From a virus, in the IMG/VR virus record IMGVR_UViG_3300049893_001444, positions 1-24,969 of that record: a stretch of DNA of 24,969 nt; one strand, 5' to 3'. The notes beneath the pieces are model-generated. The model did no database searches, was not told where the DNA came from, and saw only the letters and a list, made by a program, of their open reading frames with translations. Each line of letters opens with the position of its first letter. Positions within the stretch are counted from its first letter, which is position 1. This document shows positions 1 through 24,500 of the stretch, piece by piece. The position numbers and the translations under genes were made by a program.

Positions 1-471
1 GTGGCCACGATCAAGCAAAGGCGCATTTACCTTCGGCAGCTCATCGAGCATTATCGCGTAACAAAAATCCCCAAAGTGTTGCATCAATTTTTGCCGTCGC
101 AACAGCTGGAACGGCTGCAACAGCTGTTGCAGCTGGAACGGCTGCAACAGCTGCAACAGCTGCAACAGCTGCAACAGCTGGAACAGCTGTCGTTCTACGC
201 TAGCAGCTATGATGCCGTGCCATTGCTACCTAATAGCGTGATCTATTGCGATATCCCATATGAGAATACTCATGGATACACGCTGGCTTTCGACAGGCAA
301 AAGTTTTTAGATTGGGCAAGCAGCATCGAGCATCCTGTTTTTATATCTGAATACGAGATAAATGATTCTAGGTTTAAGATGTTTTATGAGGTTGAAAAGC
401 GGCCAATGCTCCAACAAAAAACCAGGATAGTCAAAACAAAATCGGAGCGCCTTTACTGGAACGGTAAATGA
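1..471 (+). CDS. DNA adenine methyltransferase, D12 class (probably 5'-partial)
   Basis: Probably transfers a methyl group to adenine N6 in DNA, protecting phage DNA or evading host restriction. About residues 80-156 match the C-terminal half of phage D12-class (Dam-like) methylases: IYCDIPY at about 82-88 is the DPPY-type catalytic motif IV with Ile in place of the first Pro, followed by a Tyr/Phe-rich stretch and FISEYE. The AdoMet-binding motif I expected near the N-terminus is absent, so the gene most likely starts upstream of the window and the GTG at base 1 may be internal. Residues 33-63 form a Leu/Gln repeat just ahead of the catalytic half. I recall similar low-complexity linkers in other phage methylases of this type, but cannot verify that here. 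The terminase starts 4 bases downstream, so the two genes are probably co-transcribed. Target specificity cannot be read from this fragment. Confidence 0.7.
   Translation: MATIKQRRIYLRQLIEHYRVTKIPKVLHQFLPSQQLERLQQLLQLERLQQLQQLQQLQQLEQLSFYASSYDAVPLLPNSVIYCDIPYENTHGYTLAFDRQKFLDWASSIEHPVFISEYEINDSRFKMFYEVEKRPMLQQKTRIVKTKSERLYWNGK
100..189 (+). repeat. Tandem 9-bp repeat CTGCAACAG inside the methylase gene
   Basis: Four perfect copies of CTGCAACAG occupy 142-177, flanked by variants such as CTGGAACAG and CTGGAACGG. They encode a Leu-Gln-Gln linker. Because each unit is 9 bases, gain or loss of a copy keeps the frame and changes only linker length. Bases 115-132 form a perfect 18-bp palindrome, CTGCAACAGCTGTTGCAG. 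Confidence 0.9.
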
Positions 472-475
472 ACAC

Positions 476-2281
476 ATGACCAAGATAGCCCGCATCCAGC
501 TACCCGAGCCGCATCCTGCTCAAGAGATTTTCACAGACTGGGAAACGACAAACCCAGAGGCAAGGGTATTGGTAGCACCGGCAGGCACGAAGGTCGGGAA
601 AGCCTTGCATGTCGAAACGCCAATACCTACGCCATCCGGTTGGGTGAGAATGGGAGACATAAGAGCCGGTGATTTTGTTTTTGATGAGCACGGCAAACCT
701 GTAAAGGTTATCTATGCAACTGAATGGAAGCATCATCGAGTTTGCTACGAGGTTGAGTTTTCTGACGGCTCAAAAATAATTGCTGATGCTGAACACCTTT
801 GGAAAACCACAACGCACTTTGTTGCTGTTAGAACGACCGACGAAATACGTTCGACAATAGATCAACGCCATTTTGTTGATTGGCGTTACATCGTAGCTGT
901 GCGTTCGGTGCCATCGGTGCCGGTATGCTGTATTCGGGTAGATAGCCTAACTCACATGTTTCTTGCTGGTAAGTCGTACATTCCGACACACAATAGCTTC
1001 GGATGCTCTTTGTGGGAGATCACCGCTCAGCTGGTAAACCCAGGCCTCTATGGCGTGTGGATCGCGCCAACGCTATACAAGTGCCGAGTAGGCTATCGCT
1101 ACATGAAGGCGATGCTGCCGGATATCCCCGGCATCAAGTGCCGTGATTCATCCCTTGAGATCAATCTAGCCAACCATAGCTTTATCAAATTCATGCATGG
1201 ACGGGATGCCGAGGTTACAGTCGAAGGTGACGCTATCGATACCTTCGTGATCGACGAATCAGGCAAGCAACGTGAGCAGCTTTGGCACTCGCTCTTTACC
1301 ACGATAACACAGACCGATGGGCGCGGGATCATCACCGGCACGCCTAGAGGGCGCAACTGGTACTATCATCTTTACACCAAGGCCATAGCTGGCGATCCTA
1401 TGCTATGCCACGCCAAGCTGAGGACTATCGATAGCCCTTACGTCAAGCAGGCAGCTGTTGACAGGGCAAAGCGCATCCTTCCACCTTTGCTTTACTCACA
1501 ATATTACCTTGCCGATTTCGTGTCTGATTCGTCGGTCTATGGCGCTCTTGACGGCGTTTGGCGTGATGAGCTTCCGGTATTAAGGCCTGGCTTTTGGCTG
1601 CATCCAGATGCCGAGCTGAGGCGGCAAACCGTGGTCATGGGGGTAGACCTTGCCAAGCGTCAAGACTACACGGTTATCATTGCGATCACCGGCAAAGGTG
1701 AGACGGTGGGTTTTCTTCGTATGAGGCGCAAGACCTACCAAGAGCAGGCGCAGATACTCGCCAAGTTTGCGAGCTACTTTGGCGGCGACGATAACGAGAT
1801 CCGTTACGACCGCACCGGGGTTGGCGATGCCGTCGGTGAGGAAATATCACGCATCTTTGACAAGCATCCGGGAGACTGGACGATAACGCCGGTTATCTTT
1901 ACCAACGCCTCTAAGCAAGAAATGGTAGCGCGTGTGACATGGGCGATCGAGGCAGGCTTTTGGCGATGCCCGCGCATACCGCGCCTAGAGCACGAAATGA
2001 TTAACCTCGAAGTCTCAACGTCCAAGTCTGGCCTAGCTACCTACTCGGCCCCTCCTGGCGATCACGATGACTGCCATTGGTCCTTAGCCCTAGCCCTATC
2101 TGGCGTGCATAGCTCGAACGCTATAGGCCGATCAGTCGACATGATCGAGGCAGCCATGAGCGGCCAGTTACTCACCGAAAGCGATGATGAGGATGATTTG
2201 GGGGACGATGATACAGACTTAGATGATACACTCGACGACTTAGACGACGATTTTTTGGATGACATACGGGAGATGATGTAA
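476..2281 (+). CDS. terL: Terminase large subunit, intein-containing
   Basis: ATP-driven DNA packaging motor and headful/cohesive-end nuclease that docks on the portal. The precursor is 601 aa; removal of the intein (residues 43-173) leaves 470 aa, a normal TerL size. The Walker A loop is split: AGTKVGK at 36-42 continues after the intein with SFG at 174. Walker B is TFVIDES (D260, E261), and the coupling motif TGTPRG is near 287-292. The RNase H-like nuclease domain shows Asp391 in GVDLAKRQDY, Asp445 in RYDRTGVGD, and the DHDD cluster at 529-532. The last ~40 residues are very rich in Asp and could contact the portal or another basic surface. No small terminase gene is visible; it may lie upstream. 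The portal gene begins 1 base after the stop. Packaging depends on splicing, since the unspliced P-loop cannot bind ATP normally. Confidence 0.95.
   Translation: MTKIARIQLPEPHPAQEIFTDWETTNPEARVLVAPAGTKVGKALHVETPIPTPSGWVRMGDIRAGDFVFDEHGKPVKVIYATEWKHHRVCYEVEFSDGSKIIADAEHLWKTTTHFVAVRTTDEIRSTIDQRHFVDWRYIVAVRSVPSVPVCCIRVDSLTHMFLAGKSYIPTHNSFGCSLWEITAQLVNPGLYGVWIAPTLYKCRVGYRYMKAMLPDIPGIKCRDSSLEINLANHSFIKFMHGRDAEVTVEGDAIDTFVIDESGKQREQLWHSLFTTITQTDGRGIITGTPRGRNWYYHLYTKAIAGDPMLCHAKLRTIDSPYVKQAAVDRAKRILPPLLYSQYYLADFVSDSSVYGALDGVWRDELPVLRPGFWLHPDAELRRQTVVMGVDLAKRQDYTVIIAITGKGETVGFLRMRRKTYQEQAQILAKFASYFGGDDNEIRYDRTGVGDAVGEEISRIFDKHPGDWTITPVIFTNASKQEMVARVTWAIEAGFWRCPRIPRLEHEMINLEVSTSKSGLATYSAPPGDHDDCHWSLALALSGVHSSNAIGRSVDMIEAAMSGQLLTESDDEDDLGDDDTDLDDTLDDLDDDFLDDIREMM
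602..994 (+). other. Class 3 mini-intein inserted in the terminase P-loop
   Basis: In-frame protein-splicing element of 131 residues (precursor residues 43-173). Its first residue is Ala rather than Cys or Ser, block A follows with ETPIPTPSGW, and it ends with PTHN before extein Ser174. The class 3 signature is complete: Trp109 two residues after block B His107 (B:12), Cys152 in VCCI at the position normally held by Asp in block F (F:4), and Thr171 before the penultimate His172 (G:5). In known class 3 inteins the F:4 Cys attacks the N-terminal junction directly, replacing the missing first nucleophile, and then passes the extein to the +1 residue, here Ser. The block B Thr of the usual TxxH motif is Asp104. 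There is no room for a homing endonuclease, so it is a minimal intein. Confidence 0.92.
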
Positions 2282-2282
2282 C

Positions 2283-4787
2283 ATGGCCTGGCCAAATTTT
2301 TTAAGCCGCCGCGATCTACCTAGCCAGCCTGCCCTACCTGCACGACGAAACCCCGAAATAGAGCCCGATGATTTTTCCGCTATCTATGCCTTACAGGCCA
2401 GGATTGCCGACCATTTTAAAAAATCTATGTCCTACGCCAACTATGTCGCGTGGGATAACGTCGATGACCAAGGCGGCTACTTCGGCACCGAGTTTGAGAT
2501 CAGATCGAACGCTGGCCGCATCAAGAGCCTTTATGCTCGTGAGCCATGGGTATGGGCCTCGGCAACGCTGGTAGCAAGATCCCTGTGCGTGTTGCCCTAC
2601 AAGGCCTACGTTCCAGGCACGGACCAAGAGATAGTAAATCACCCGGTAACCATGGTCATGAGGCAGGGCACGCCTACCTTGTCGCCGATCGCCACGCGCT
2701 GGCTGCAAATGCTCGATGTAATGCTAGGCGGCAATAGCATCTTGATCCTAGAGCCCGACATGAAAACCGTAGCCGGGATCGCGCCGATCGAGCTGGTCAA
2801 CTTTCAATACTCTAAGGATAGCAGCCAGATCGAATACGTCGACGTTTACGCCTACGGCGGCGATCAGAAGGCGGCAAGGTTCCCATACTCGCAGTGCGTG
2901 CATACGAAATACCCTAACCCCTATAACCCGTTTTATGGCCTTAGCCCGTTTATCGCGGCAGCCAGGCCGTTGCTATCAGACCGCTACGCCAGCGAGTTTG
3001 ATATGGCCTTTTATCTTAGAGGCGGCACGGCTAGCGGCGTGATCGAGACGACCGAGGAAATCTCAAAGAGCCGGTTCCAAAGGCTCATGCGAACCTTTGA
3101 AGCCAGTTTCACCGGCAGGTCGAATTGGTGGAGGACCCTCTTCCTTCCGAAGGGTACGGCATGGAAATCTGCACAGCTGACGCCGGCTGAGGCGCAGCAC
3201 CTAGACAAGCTCAAGGACAATCGCAAGGTCATTCTAGCTGTGCTCGGCATACCGCCTAGCATGGTAGGACTCATCGAGGACGTAAACCGCGCCACGGCAG
3301 AGCAGCAAGAGCGGGCCCTATGGGCAAACCTGCTCACGCCTATGGCAATCTTTAACGCCGATGGCTGGAACGCATCTAGCCTTGTGCGTGACACATACAA
3401 GGGCAAGGTCGAGGTCAAGCCAGACTTCTCAGCGGTCGAGGCAGTCGAGGGCTTTGTCGCTGCAAGGCGTGAGCGATCGGAAGCCATGTCGCCGTATTTC
3501 TTTATCGATGAGATCAGGGAAAAGGTATGGAAGGCGGAACCACTACCCGACGGCTTAGGCCAGCGTCTAGTTGCCGAGGTCAAGCCAGCCATGCCGACTT
3601 TAGCCTTGGCAGCTGGCGGCATTTCCACGCGCATGGCGGCGATACCTGATGGCATGTCTGTTCAAGCTTTGTATTTCCTCAAGGCGCAATTTGGCAAAGC
3701 AGAGGACGCGCAGCAATGGGCTAGGGAGCACGGCTTTGCAACGGCGCCGGTCCATGAAATGGCCGACGAATGGATGATCGAGCAAGAGGGCCTAGACCTT
3801 TACGAGCGCGAAACCATGAAACGTGTAACCCTTGAGGATGGCGTCAATGCAAACATAGGCGCTCGCAATCGCGTCGACGACAAGGCCGCCAAGGCAGCTA
3901 TCTTTAAAAGGGTAAAAGAGACGGCCATAGCAAGCCAGAACCGCGTGGAAACCAAGCTAGCCAAAGACTTCGAGGCAGCGCTTGCTAAATACGTTGAGGC
4001 TCTAGTTCTTGCCGCCAAGACGGCACTAGAGCGCAAGGCCAATGTGCAGGCGCATCTTGATGGCAAGGCAAGCGAGCGGCGAGAGATTTGGGCAGAGAAT
4101 GTGATACCGGTCCTTGAGAGGGCATTAGATCGCGGGTTCTCAGTCGGCCTTTCACAAGTTAGACTGTTTGACAAGGTGCAAATCAAAGAGGTTCGAGAGG
4201 GGTTTCCGGCGTTGAACGAAACAGACCGCCAAGCCGTCGATGTACTGCGTGAGCGCACGCGGTCTGGTAGGCGTGAAGTGCTGGCCAAACGTGGGCTAGA
4301 TCGATTCGTAGGGCTTGATAGACGGCAGACCGAGCAGGTCATGCAGATCATCGAGGACGGCGAAAACGACGGTAAGACCTTCGAGCAGATCGCCCAAACT
4401 ATCCGGCGTGACTTCGGCGAGGCTTACGGCAATCAGGCGAGGACTATTGTCAGGACGGAAATCCTTAGTGCAGTATCAGAGGGCCTTGCATGGAACCACG
4501 ACGTTTTGGGCCAGGTCTTTTCAGAGGTCCAAAAGCAATGGATACATCAGGGCGATGCTGGCTTGAATGACGACGCCCGCGAGGAACACGCAGCCCTTGA
4601 GGATGATCTGAAATCGGGCGATGATGCTTGGTCAGTGATCGACAGCAAAACAGGTGAGGCCTATACCTTGCGTTATCCTCGCGATCCCTCAGCACCGGCA
4701 TCAGGCGTGATCAACTGCCGTTGCTCTATGGTGACCGTCATACCAGATAGCGCAACGTCCAACGCCGACGCCATACTCGAAGGATAA
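2283..4787 (+). CDS. Portal protein fused to MuF-like minor head domain
   Basis: Forms the dodecameric vertex through which DNA is packaged, with an attached head-morphogenesis domain. Residues ~70-380 match HK97/lambdoid-type portals: REPWVWASATLVARSLCVLP, then a GNS-containing stretch, a NPYNPFYGLSP loop, LRGG, and a PPSMVGL segment followed by an ATAEQQ motif. Residues ~458-485 carry a small motif of the WAREHGF type that occurs as a linker domain in phage capsid proteins. Residues ~520-670 are helical and charged. Residues ~672-830 match the Mu protein F / SPP1 gp7 family, with RTEI, a QWIHQGD segment, an acidic REEHAALE and the hallmark INCRCS near the end. At 834 aa it is about twice a normal portal, consistent with fusion of two usually separate genes. 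Upstream junction to terL is 1 base; the protease starts 7 bases downstream. Confidence 0.9.
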   Translation: MAWPNFLSRRDLPSQPALPARRNPEIEPDDFSAIYALQARIADHFKKSMSYANYVAWDNVDDQGGYFGTEFEIRSNAGRIKSLYAREPWVWASATLVARSLCVLPYKAYVPGTDQEIVNHPVTMVMRQGTPTLSPIATRWLQMLDVMLGGNSILILEPDMKTVAGIAPIELVNFQYSKDSSQIEYVDVYAYGGDQKAARFPYSQCVHTKYPNPYNPFYGLSPFIAAARPLLSDRYASEFDMAFYLRGGTASGVIETTEEISKSRFQRLMRTFEASFTGRSNWWRTLFLPKGTAWKSAQLTPAEAQHLDKLKDNRKVILAVLGIPPSMVGLIEDVNRATAEQQERALWANLLTPMAIFNADGWNASSLVRDTYKGKVEVKPDFSAVEAVEGFVAARRERSEAMSPYFFIDEIREKVWKAEPLPDGLGQRLVAEVKPAMPTLALAAGGISTRMAAIPDGMSVQALYFLKAQFGKAEDAQQWAREHGFATAPVHEMADEWMIEQEGLDLYERETMKRVTLEDGVNANIGARNRVDDKAAKAAIFKRVKETAIASQNRVETKLAKDFEAALAKYVEALVLAAKTALERKANVQAHLDGKASERREIWAENVIPVLERALDRGFSVGLSQVRLFDKVQIKEVREGFPALNETDRQAVDVLRERTRSGRREVLAKRGLDRFVGLDRRQTEQVMQIIEDGENDGKTFEQIAQTIRRDFGEAYGNQARTIVRTEILSAVSEGLAWNHDVLGQVFSEVQKQWIHQGDAGLNDDAREEHAALEDDLKSGDDAWSVIDSKTGEAYTLRYPRDPSAPASGVINCRCSMVTVIPDSATSNADAILEG

Positions 4788-5844: not shown

Positions 5845-7200
5845 ATGGGTGCCGCCAAAACCTTGTTAGAAAACAGCCAGAAACTTTACGGGATGCTGGG
5901 CGACCGTAAAGCGCCCGCCGCTGGCGGTGTCGCCTTGAAGGCGATGCTTGGCAAAGACCTTGAGATAGCCAAGTCATTCGGTGCAGCTGGCTTTGCCGAC
6001 TTGTTCGGCCATCGTGAGCTATCCGACAATTCGCCAGTCGGCAGCTGCCTCAACTTCGGTAGCAAGTCGTCGGTCGGCGGTATGCCTGAGGAAACCAGGC
6101 TGCGCCTTTTCAACTTGAAAAAGCTGGTATCGAACGTCGAGATCCAGGCGCAGTATCTTTACAAGACGCCGCATCCCACGCCGGATCAAATGAAGTCGGT
6201 ACCATTGTTCAAGCAGCTTGAGCCGATGCTCAAGGCTTTTGACGTTACCGACTTTTCGACGTTCATTCAGACCGTGAACGTGCGTTTCTATTTCGAGGAA
6301 TACGAGATACCGCTCATGGTCGGCGATCTCTTTGATCAGCTGCCCATGGCCTCGGCATCCGAGAATGTTACCGGCATCCTCTCGCGCCTTTTCGGCAAGC
6401 TTGAGACCGATGCCGCTACCTACGGCGTTCAGAGCAACACGCAGTCAAACTATTTGATTGCCGCCAAGGATAACGTCGTACACACCGAGATCACGCAGGA
6501 CTTGAACCAAGATTCTGCGCCCGCAGTGATCGACAAGATCCGCAAGGAAGTAAACCTCGGTATCGCACGTTCCGAGGAACGCGCTTACCTTGACGGCGAC
6601 ACAACCGGCACGCACATGGACGCCGACGTTACCGCTGGTACCGACTTCCGCAAAGCCTACAAAGGCATTCGCAAACTCGGCCTTGCCAACAGCGCTAACG
6701 GCTCGGTCTATGACCATGCCGGCGATCTGCCGAGCAAGATCCTGTTTGATAACCTGCTCCTGAAGATGGGCAAGTTCGGCTCTGAAAAAGCTGACCTTTG
6801 CTGGATCATGGGTAGCTTTGTCGAAAACCGTTTAGTGACCGGCGCGATCCCTGAGCTTTTCACGGCGTTTGCTTTCGGTGGTCAAGCCTCGAACGTGACC
6901 GGCCAAGTGCCGCCAGTTTACGGCATCAAAGGTGTGACATCTGAATGGGTACGCGAGGACTTGGCAGCTACCGGCGTTTACACGGTCGGCGGCGAAACCA
7001 AGACCTGGATGGCGCTCGTCAAGAAAAGCCGCATCCTGCGCCATCTGCGTGCGCCGGTCCGCGTATGGGCTGCGCCTTCCTTGCCGTCTAGCGATAAGAT
7101 GCTGATGACCGCCAAAAAGCGTCACACCTTCTCGGCCTACCCGCAGTCGGCGACCGAGAAAAGCATCATCGTCGGTATCAACATCGAAACCGCCTTGTAA
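5845..7200 (+). CDS. Major capsid protein, HK97 fold
   Basis: Main shell protein of the icosahedral head. It is 451 aa and sits directly after the protease, the expected place. A strong ribosome site (AGGAGACG) precedes the ATG, fitting a high-copy protein. The N-terminal ~130 residues are helical and charged and may act as a delta domain that the protease removes. The rest contains capsid-like features: an E-loop-type stretch, repeated short strands, and a C-terminal segment with an RVWAAP turn and a final strand ending in NIETAL. Family assignment rests mainly on position, size and general character. I cannot place the cleavage site with certainty. Confidence 0.85.
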   Translation: MGAAKTLLENSQKLYGMLGDRKAPAAGGVALKAMLGKDLEIAKSFGAAGFADLFGHRELSDNSPVGSCLNFGSKSSVGGMPEETRLRLFNLKKLVSNVEIQAQYLYKTPHPTPDQMKSVPLFKQLEPMLKAFDVTDFSTFIQTVNVRFYFEEYEIPLMVGDLFDQLPMASASENVTGILSRLFGKLETDAATYGVQSNTQSNYLIAAKDNVVHTEITQDLNQDSAPAVIDKIRKEVNLGIARSEERAYLDGDTTGTHMDADVTAGTDFRKAYKGIRKLGLANSANGSVYDHAGDLPSKILFDNLLLKMGKFGSEKADLCWIMGSFVENRLVTGAIPELFTAFAFGGQASNVTGQVPPVYGIKGVTSEWVREDLAATGVYTVGGETKTWMALVKKSRILRHLRAPVRVWAAPSLPSSDKMLMTAKKRHTFSAYPQSATEKSIIVGINIETAL

Positions 7201-21531: not shown

Positions 21532-24500
21532 GATTTCTAGCATTGTTTTTGAGCTTGTTTGTAGGCGTGGCATCGCTCGCAGACAACGTGACGAGCGTGA
21601 GTAGGTTACAGCTAGATCATCCCAACATGGGACACACTGGCGGTGCTGCGCTGCATACCCATATCAATGACATTTATGTAAAGGTCGGCGATAACGTCGC
21701 CACGCGATACAAGGAATATACCGGCATTGCAAATAGCGCCGTGACTACCTACGAGCACAATCTGAACGTGCCGTTTTCCGATATGGTGCTAGTCCTCTGG
21801 TCTGGTGTGGGATCTGCAAAGACCAGGATCGAAAACCCAACGGCATCCGGCTGGACGATTGCGGCCACGCCTTCCTTTCTCAAGACCAAGGTAAACGTAA
21901 CCGCGCCAAGCTCTGGCGGCCCGCATAGCTTTACGGTCGAGATCCATTCGGGACTAAGAGCATTGTCCACGGTAAACCCTTCAAACGTGACGATAACCGG
22001 AAACGTCATCGAGGGATTTTCCACGCTGCTTTTGACCAGCACGACGGTTTATGATTGGCTGAGATTTCAAGAATCAGGCGGTAGCGACTATGTGCAAATG
22101 CAATCGCCTGCCCTTGCATCCAGCTATACTCTGACCTTACCAGCGACCGACGGCAACGCCGATGAGGTTTTGATCAACAGCGACGGCAGCGGGACCATGA
22201 CCTTCGGCAAGGTCGCTAATGCCAACGTGGCCTCTGCCGCGGCGATCGACTATAGCAAGCTGAACCTCAGCAATAGCATCGTGAACGGCGATGTAAACTC
22301 ATCGGCTGCAATCGCCTACAGCAAATTGAACCTAAGCAATAGCATCGTGAACGGCGACGTAAACGCATCGGCAGCAATAGACGCGACCAAGCTAGGTACT
22401 GGCACGGTCGACAATACGGAGCTGGGATATCTAAACGGCATAACCTCTGCCGTGCAAACCCAGCTTGATGCCAAGCTAAACAAGTCTGGCGGCGTGATGA
22501 CGGGATCGATCACGCTAGCAGGTGATGCCTCTAACCCGCTTGAGCCAGTAACTAAGCAGCAATTTGACGCAGGCCTAAACGGTATCGCATGGAAACAGCC
22601 AGTAAGAACGGCATCAAGTGCAGCGGGAACGCTCGCAACTGACTTTGAAAACGGCGATAGCGTGGGTGGTGTCACCATTGCAACTAATGACCGCATCCTA
22701 CTTAAAAATCAGGTTACGACTTCGGAAAACGGCATTTATCTGGTCAATGCCTCTGGCGCGCCAAGTCGTTCGGCTGATGCCGATGCTTACACTGAGCTAA
22801 ACGGTGCTGCGGTGATAGTGTCAGAGGGCACCTATGCGAATACTGGTTATTACCAATCTACTGAACTAACCAGCTTTTCCGGGCAAGTTTGGTTTCAGAA
22901 TTTCGGCACTGGTCTTTATCTTGCCGATGGCAACGGCATAGAGCTAAGCGGATCAACATTTAGCCTGGAGCTTGATGGCAACACGTTATCCAAGAGCGCG
23001 ACCGGCCTTAAGGTCGAGGAAGGAAACCTCACACTAGACAATATCAGCGGCACTCTTAGTGTGACCAAAGGTGGTACTGGCATCGCCAGCGGAACAAGCG
23101 GCGGCGTTCCTTATTACTCGGCATCTACCACGATAGCCAGCTCTGGCGCGTTAGGCCTTAATGGCGTGGTCTTAGGCGGCGGTGCTGGTAGCTCGCCGAC
23201 CACGACGGCAGCCGGTTCAGCCTATCAATCTTTGCGCGTGCCATCGGGCGGTGGTGCGCCAGCCTTCGGTGCTCTTGACGTTAGCCAGTCTGCGGCAGTA
23301 ACTGGAACACTTCAAGCTAGTAACGGTGGTACAGGGATAACATCACTTGGATCTGGAATACCTGCATTTTTAGGCACACCTAGCAGTTCTAATTTAGCCT
23401 CAGCCGTTACTGATGAAACTGGTACTGGATCGGCTGTGTTTGCTACGACGCCAACACTCGTAACCCCAAGAATCGATGACGCGCTAAACCTTGAGCAGAT
23501 AGCAACGCCTGCAAATCCGTCATCAGGTTTTACCAAAGTTTACCCTAAGACTGATGGCTTGCTTTACAAGCTCGACTCGGCAGGCAATGAAGTGCTAGTC
23601 GGCAGCGGCTCTGGTGCTGGCGAGATCAATATCGTCATCAACGCAGACGGCGACACCGCGCTAGACGGTGGCCGTACTGACGATGTAGGCGATTGGATTG
23701 ACAGCGGCACTGGCACGACTAGCACACGAGTAGACAGCTCAACACCGACGCAGATTCCTCTATATCCGACTAAGACTAACGCCATCAAGATCGCCAACGA
23801 CGGCAGCAGCACAGGCTACACACGCCTACGCATGACGCTCCCGGTAGCATTGCAAAATCGCAAGCTCAAGATAGCTTGGCAGCAGCTTTACAGCACTAGC
23901 ACTGCTTATGTGTCTGGCGATTTCAAGCTAGAGCTTTACAGCAATGCTAGCGCTGACTATAGCGGCGCATACACTCCTATATCGCTTTCCACCGACGCCT
24001 CTGGTGTTACGAGTATTCCCGCACTAAACGGGCAATTCCAAACTACCTTCGATACGTCCACAGCTAGCTATTTGGAGCTGAGAATCACGCGGGTAGCGGG
24101 GGCTGCGAGCAGCTATATAGCGCTAAATGCGGTGACTGTGGGACCGGGGATACAGCCGCAGGGTGCGGTGGTGGGGGAGTGGCAGAGTTATACACCAAGT
24201 TTCAATGGAATGTCGGCATCTAATATAAATGCTAGGCATCGCAGAAACGGAACGAGCGTTGATTTAGAGATTACTTTCAGCACAGCGGCATCAGCAGCAG
24301 AGGCCAGGATATCTTTACCGACAGGTTTAACAGCAACTAGCTTATCTAGCAATAAAGAGCTAGTCGGTAGAGCTTCAGTTGGTACAAGTTCCGCATCTAC
24401 TAGAAAGAACTACGCGGCTATAGGTGTCAGCGCCCAGCAATATATAGCATTAGGAGCAGATGATTATACTACGGCGGCAAACCCTTTCAGCTTAGTTGTA

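Follow-up and report, generated by a model that had tools for sequence, protein, structure and literature searches.

The window analysed here is the whole of a 24,969-base IMG/VR viral fragment, for which no near-identical DNA was found in named phages. It carries, close to its left end, an open reading frame for a 601-residue precursor of the terminase large subunit (TerL). This assignment is based on a Pfam match to Terminase_6C (E 1.2e-10), on a PHROG match to terminase large subunits and on PDB matches to TerL nuclease domains. A search of cellular genomes for the window TerL recovered a single MAG contig, at 34%. The frame is interrupted by an intein, and the features of the precursor are collected in Table 1.

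Table 1. Features of the terL precursor and its intein. Positions are those of the window; residues are numbered within the intein unless TerL is stated.
Feature	Position	Strand	Basis
terL precursor ORF, ATPase and Terminase_6C RNase H-like nuclease, intein-interrupted	476-2281	+	Pfam, PHROG, PDB
N-extein, TerL residues 1-42, ending in APAGTKVGK	476-601	+	alignment with intein-free TerLs
N-terminal half of the P-loop (AGTKVGK), to be completed by TerL Ser174 after splicing	581-601	+	unbroken [CA]GTKxGKS-type P-loop in 38 intein-free homologue loci
Class 3 mini-intein, 131 aa, Ala1 to Asn131	602-994	+	homology, alignment, predicted fold
Ala1 (block A:1, non-nucleophilic; TerL residue 43)	602-604	+	alignment
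Cys48, counterpart of the disulfide partner Cys48 in Msm DnaBi1	743-745	+	column kept in 19/23 clade members; PMC6195587
Asp62 of block B DxxH (TerL Asp104)	785-787	+	alignment
His65 (B:10; TerL 107), predicted catalytic base	794-796	+	invariant; equivalent to His65 of the MchDnaB1 triad
Trp67 (B:12; TerL 109) of WCT	800-802	+	invariant
Short linker, residues 86-95, at the position of the relatives' homing endonuclease	857-886	+	alignment with L004/L039
Cys110 (F:4; TerL 152) of WCT, predicted branch-point nucleophile	929-931	+	invariant; equivalent to Cys124 of MchDnaB1
His118, block F His, predicted aid to Asn cyclization	953-955	+	alignment; role from PMC7891396
Thr129 (G:5; TerL 171) of WCT	986-988	+	invariant
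His130-Asn131 (TerL 172, 173), penultimate His and cyclizing Asn	989-994	+	invariant
Ser+1 (TerL Ser174), predicted splicing nucleophile, later P-loop Ser of mature TerL	995-997	+	GKS in homologues
C-extein	995-2278	+	Pfam; alignment with intein-free TerLs

The insert comprises TerL residues 43-173, that is, 131 codons in frame, and it is flanked by the P-loop residues Lys42 and Ser174, which is the insertion point known as TerL site 'a'. The boundaries given in an earlier note on this DNA (602-994) are exact to the base, and its placement of the insert between Lys42 and Ser174 is borne out by homologous TerLs that are empty at that very point. Thus, in the TerLs of the IMG/VR contigs L002 (70% identical) and L003 (67%), GK runs straight into S with no residue extra or missing, and an unbroken P-loop of the type listed in Table 1 is found in a total of 38 related loci. 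Because the intein splits the P-loop, it may soundly be inferred from the sequence that the ATPase activity of TerL would depend on splicing. For RadA, the presence of a P-loop intein has been reported to abolish ATPase activity, according to the account given in PMC6195587.

The class 3 criteria of Tori and Perler (2011) were taken as they are stated in papers citing that work. Position 1 of the intein is Ala1 and thus offers no Cys, Ser or Thr nucleophile, and the WCT set (Trp67, Cys110 and Thr129) lines up with those of MchDnaB1 and of 32 further inteins. Block B His65 and the C-terminal Asn131 are present, and the predicted HINT fold resembles those of solved class 3 inteins (6bs8, Z 22.2). 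Across the 34 aligned inteins, the WCT residues, His65, His130 and Asn131 are invariant. The catalytic residues have been identified as His65, Cys124 and Thr143 in MchDnaB1 (PMC7664689), and as Trp67, Cys118, Thr137, Asp62 and His65 in Msm DnaBi1 (PMC6195587); Ala1, His65, Trp67, Cys110, Thr129, His130 and Asn131 of the window intein align with the catalytic residues of these two proteins. In particular, Cys110 (TerL Cys152) falls at F:4, opposite Cys124 of MchDnaB1.

When the whole intein (residues 1-131) was searched with phmmer, the best matches were the MchDnaB1 intein of M. chimaera (6rix, E 1.5e-30) and the Msm DnaBi1 intein of M. smegmatis (6bs8, E 1e-29), with an engineered gp41-1 variant far behind (E 5.8e-07). 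The class 3 assignment made in the earlier note therefore stands, with Ala1, the full WCT set and proven class 3 inteins as nearest relatives. That an intein of class 1 or 2 has been mistaken for one of class 3 has a negligible probability: gp41-1, a class 1 intein, is related in sequence and likewise has the Thr of THN, but class 1 inteins use Cys or Ser at position 1 as first nucleophile, which Ala1 excludes, while Trp67 and the Cys at F:4 are marks of class 3. Residue 1, the F:4 residue and the score gap (about 109 bits for the class 3 structures, 33 for the engineered gp41-1 variant) rule out both other classes. No Pfam or NCBIfam model recognised the intein above its cutoff; of the intein-type matches, the best were Hint_2, at E 0.033, and a radical SAM model that includes an intein, at E 0.028; a Tudor_2 match over 14 residues (E 0.0077), well under its cutoff, was taken as chance.

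The intein also lacks the homing endonuclease domain present in its lineage and is in this sense a mini-intein, as the earlier note had stated. No endonuclease Pfam match was obtained in its 131 residues, compared with 345 residues and a LAGLIDADG_3 domain in the L004 intein. An AlphaFold2 model, built on an alignment of 12 inteins, has a mean pLDDT of 90.3, with lower confidence at the C-terminal end (pLDDT 59 for the last block). The PDB structure that it matches best is 6bs8, a class 3 DnaB intein, with a TM of 0.88, a Z of 22.2 and an rmsd of 1.1 A over 123 residues. Two trees place the window intein among the class 3 inteins of TerL and DnaB (support 99/96 and 100/99), with no supported exact neighbour. 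Among solved proteins, both sequence and predicted fold thus put it closest to two class 3 mini-inteins of DnaB, those of Mycobacterium smegmatis and M. chimaera.

Like the window intein, the latter two proteins (6bs8 and 6rix) are endonuclease-free, share the class 3 fold (Z about 22), and have the WCT set, the DxxH motif and Cys48; Msm DnaBi1 also occupies a P-loop site with Ser+1. Their size is similar (139-145 vs 131 residues). They differ in host protein, which is the mycobacterial DnaB helicase rather than TerL, and the identity is about 45%. The window intein has a shorter linker and an extra cysteine, Cys109, which immediately precedes Cys110 and is poorly conserved, being shared by one other intein (L101) of the 34 aligned. 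In mycobacteriophages, no protein hosts inteins more often than TerL, those of class 3 are common in it, and TerL1-a is a classic Lys/Thr P-loop intein site (PMC5050341). The inteins at this site, including that of phage Henry (L022), which is class 3 by its WCT set, lie like the window intein between the P-loop Lys and a hydroxyl residue, but they belong to a different TerL family and have Thr at +1. The Henry intein, at 331 residues, is about 200 residues longer than that of the window, which judged by length is the size expected for an endonuclease domain. Precedent for a class 3 mini-intein within the P-loop of a terminase comes from phiTHAF39, a Marinobacter phage-plasmid (L068), in which 140 residues separate the P-loop Lys and Thr; this terminase is of the GpA type, unlike that of the window, and the inteins are about 40% identical. 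No description of the phiTHAF39 GpA intein was found in the literature searched.

Two statements of the earlier note have to be corrected in the light of these comparisons. The replacement of the block B Thr by Asp (TerL Asp104) had been considered unusual; among the 34 aligned class 3 inteins, however, the block B residue is Asp in 19, Cys in five, Gly in five, Ser in four, Asn in one and Thr in none. As a rule, class 3 inteins have no Thr at this place in block B, and in Msm DnaBi1 Asp62 belongs to a DxxH motif (PMC6195587). Similarly, to call class 3 inteins uncommon was an overstatement given their frequency in mycobacteriophage TerL and the 1701 of them counted in nr by 2020, of which 82.5% have LAGLIDADG motifs and 17.5% do not (PMC7891396). 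Taken alone, the window intein is ordinary, nearly textbook.

A few further inserts came to light in the collected loci. By inspection, L085 (136 residues, Gly1) and L109/L110 (173 residues) also harbor P-loop mini-inteins in terminase-like proteins, and a 141-residue class 3 mini-intein lies in the P-loop of an SbcC-like ATPase on an unannotated human-gut phage scaffold (L069, 2501-2923; MT835601.1).

The same insertion point is occupied in other IMG/VR contigs, L004/L062, L039-L042, L074 and L076, which share with the window the TerL family and the class 3 core, and whose inteins, of 265-345 residues, have an intact (L004, L074, L076) or decayed (L039) endonuclease, unlike that of the window. 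In L004/L062 the intein is 345 residues long, and LAGLIDADG_3 scores above its profile cutoff in L004; those of L074 (343 residues) and L076 (319 residues) have an intact endonuclease as judged by motif. The L039-L042 inteins have 265 residues; in L039, the first LAGLIDADG motif is lost and the second altered, and a profile search gave no endonuclease family match. In one terminase family, the same P-loop site is thus found empty, full, decaying and reduced to a mini-intein. Since other inteins at the same point have intact (345 residues) or decayed (265 residues) endonucleases, the window intein can be regarded as an endpoint of endonuclease loss. Aligned with L004 and L039, it retains the RTTDEIRST segment that precedes the endonuclease and the strand that follows it, YIVAVRSVPSV, with about ten residues joining the two. 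The most likely ancestor of the window intein is a same-site homing intein that lost its LAGLIDADG endonuclease by deletion. The L004 or L074 type is its likely direct source, with the limit that the same-site TerL inteins form no supported single clade in the tree. GC3 is 40% in the intein and 62% in the extein, and the intein value is below those of all 4122 coding stretches of the same length sampled in the window, which fits acquisition from a different background. The exact window allele is represented by one copy in the comparison. As one site in one terminase family shows every stage in the life cycle of an intein, comparison there can test how endonucleases are lost and why class 3 mini-inteins are retained.

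The L074 intein, which starts near position 3034 of its locus (IMGVR_UViG_3300037488_002350), has the full class 3 WCT set and yet a Cys at position 1. Since class 3 is defined by the absence of that Cys, this intein may offer two candidate nucleophiles, or it may represent an intermediate between classes 1 and 3.

Sequence, model and analogy together make it very probable that, within the TerL precursor, the insert is a self-excising class 3 mini-intein, with the probable loss of a same-site endonuclease. Three related class 3 mini-inteins have been shown experimentally to splice (PMC5222942). In the proposed mechanism, Cys110, activated by His65 and Thr129, would attack the Lys42-Ala43 bond and generate a branched thioester, after which the N-extein would move to Ser+1. 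Cyclization of Asn131, aided by His118 and His130, would free the intein, and an O-N shift would link Lys42 to Ser174, restoring the AGTKVGKS P-loop. Ser174 would have a double role, first as splicing nucleophile and then as the P-loop Ser of mature TerL. Without its endonuclease the intein would be immobile, and it would be retained because TerL requires accurate excision. It is very unlikely that the insert is instead a class 3 intein in decay, with poor splicing or none, which would leave TerL inactive and the phage dead. The endonuclease is already gone and inteins can decay once immobile, but the catalytic residues are all intact, and the frame is open across the 601-residue TerL, as are head and tail genes downstream. 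Moreover, retention of the intein itself implies splicing, since a non-splicing P-loop intein in an essential gene should be lethal.

Self-excision would be compatible with an additional role for the intein as a redox-responsive switch by which DNA packaging is held back during oxidative stress, although this is rather improbable. In Msm DnaBi1, H2O2 joins Cys48 to the catalytic Cys118 and splicing stops (PMC6195587). Both members of this inhibitory pair are present in the window intein, and Cys109, adjacent to Cys110, provides an additional thiol. Although Cys48 was called non-conserved by the authors of that study (PMC6195587), it is found in 19 of the 23 members of the clade of the window intein and in none of the 11 members of its sister clade, counts that do not represent population frequencies, the sample having been gathered partly by similarity to the window. 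By analogy, it is conceivable, if doubtful, that oxidation links Cys48 to Cys110 (or Cys109 to Cys110) and holds the packaging motor as a precursor, reduction then freeing the active ATPase. On the other hand, all tested Cys48 mutants of Msm DnaBi1 fail to splice (PMC6195587), so that conservation of this residue may be structural, which is an equally good reading. If the switch does operate, endonuclease loss would amount to domestication, turning a mobile element into a regulator. The Cys48 and catalytic Cys pair extends to most of a phage TerL/DnaB clade, so that the idea of a redox sensor becomes open to test in DNA packaging.

Elsewhere in the window, an ORF at 1-471 (+), which may extend past the left end of the window, matches PHROG_56, a phage DNA methyltransferase (E 1.2e-13), and contains a DIPY motif. 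Within it, about 10 copies of a 9-bp unit, repeated in tandem and in frame at 99-189, yield an LQQ/LER stretch; a unit of this size cannot shift the frame, and the length of the repeat may vary. This ORF ends just before terL, and in the region ahead of terL (1-475) no small subunit of the terminase was recognised. Downstream, a single 834-residue ORF (2283-4787) combines a portal protein (Phage_portal, E 6e-39) with a head morphogenesis domain like that of Mu F (Phage_Mu_F, E 1e-05, just under its cutoff) in one fusion. A 451-residue protein in the position of the major capsid protein (5845-7200) had no PHROG or credible Pfam match and no tblastn match in 50,697 phage records, its only match being a weak, sub-cutoff one to an HK97 capsid model (NCBIfam, E 0.0064). 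Near the right end, a 66-bp direct tandem repeat (22245-22382, 2.1 copies) lies within an open frame that is probably a tail fibre gene.
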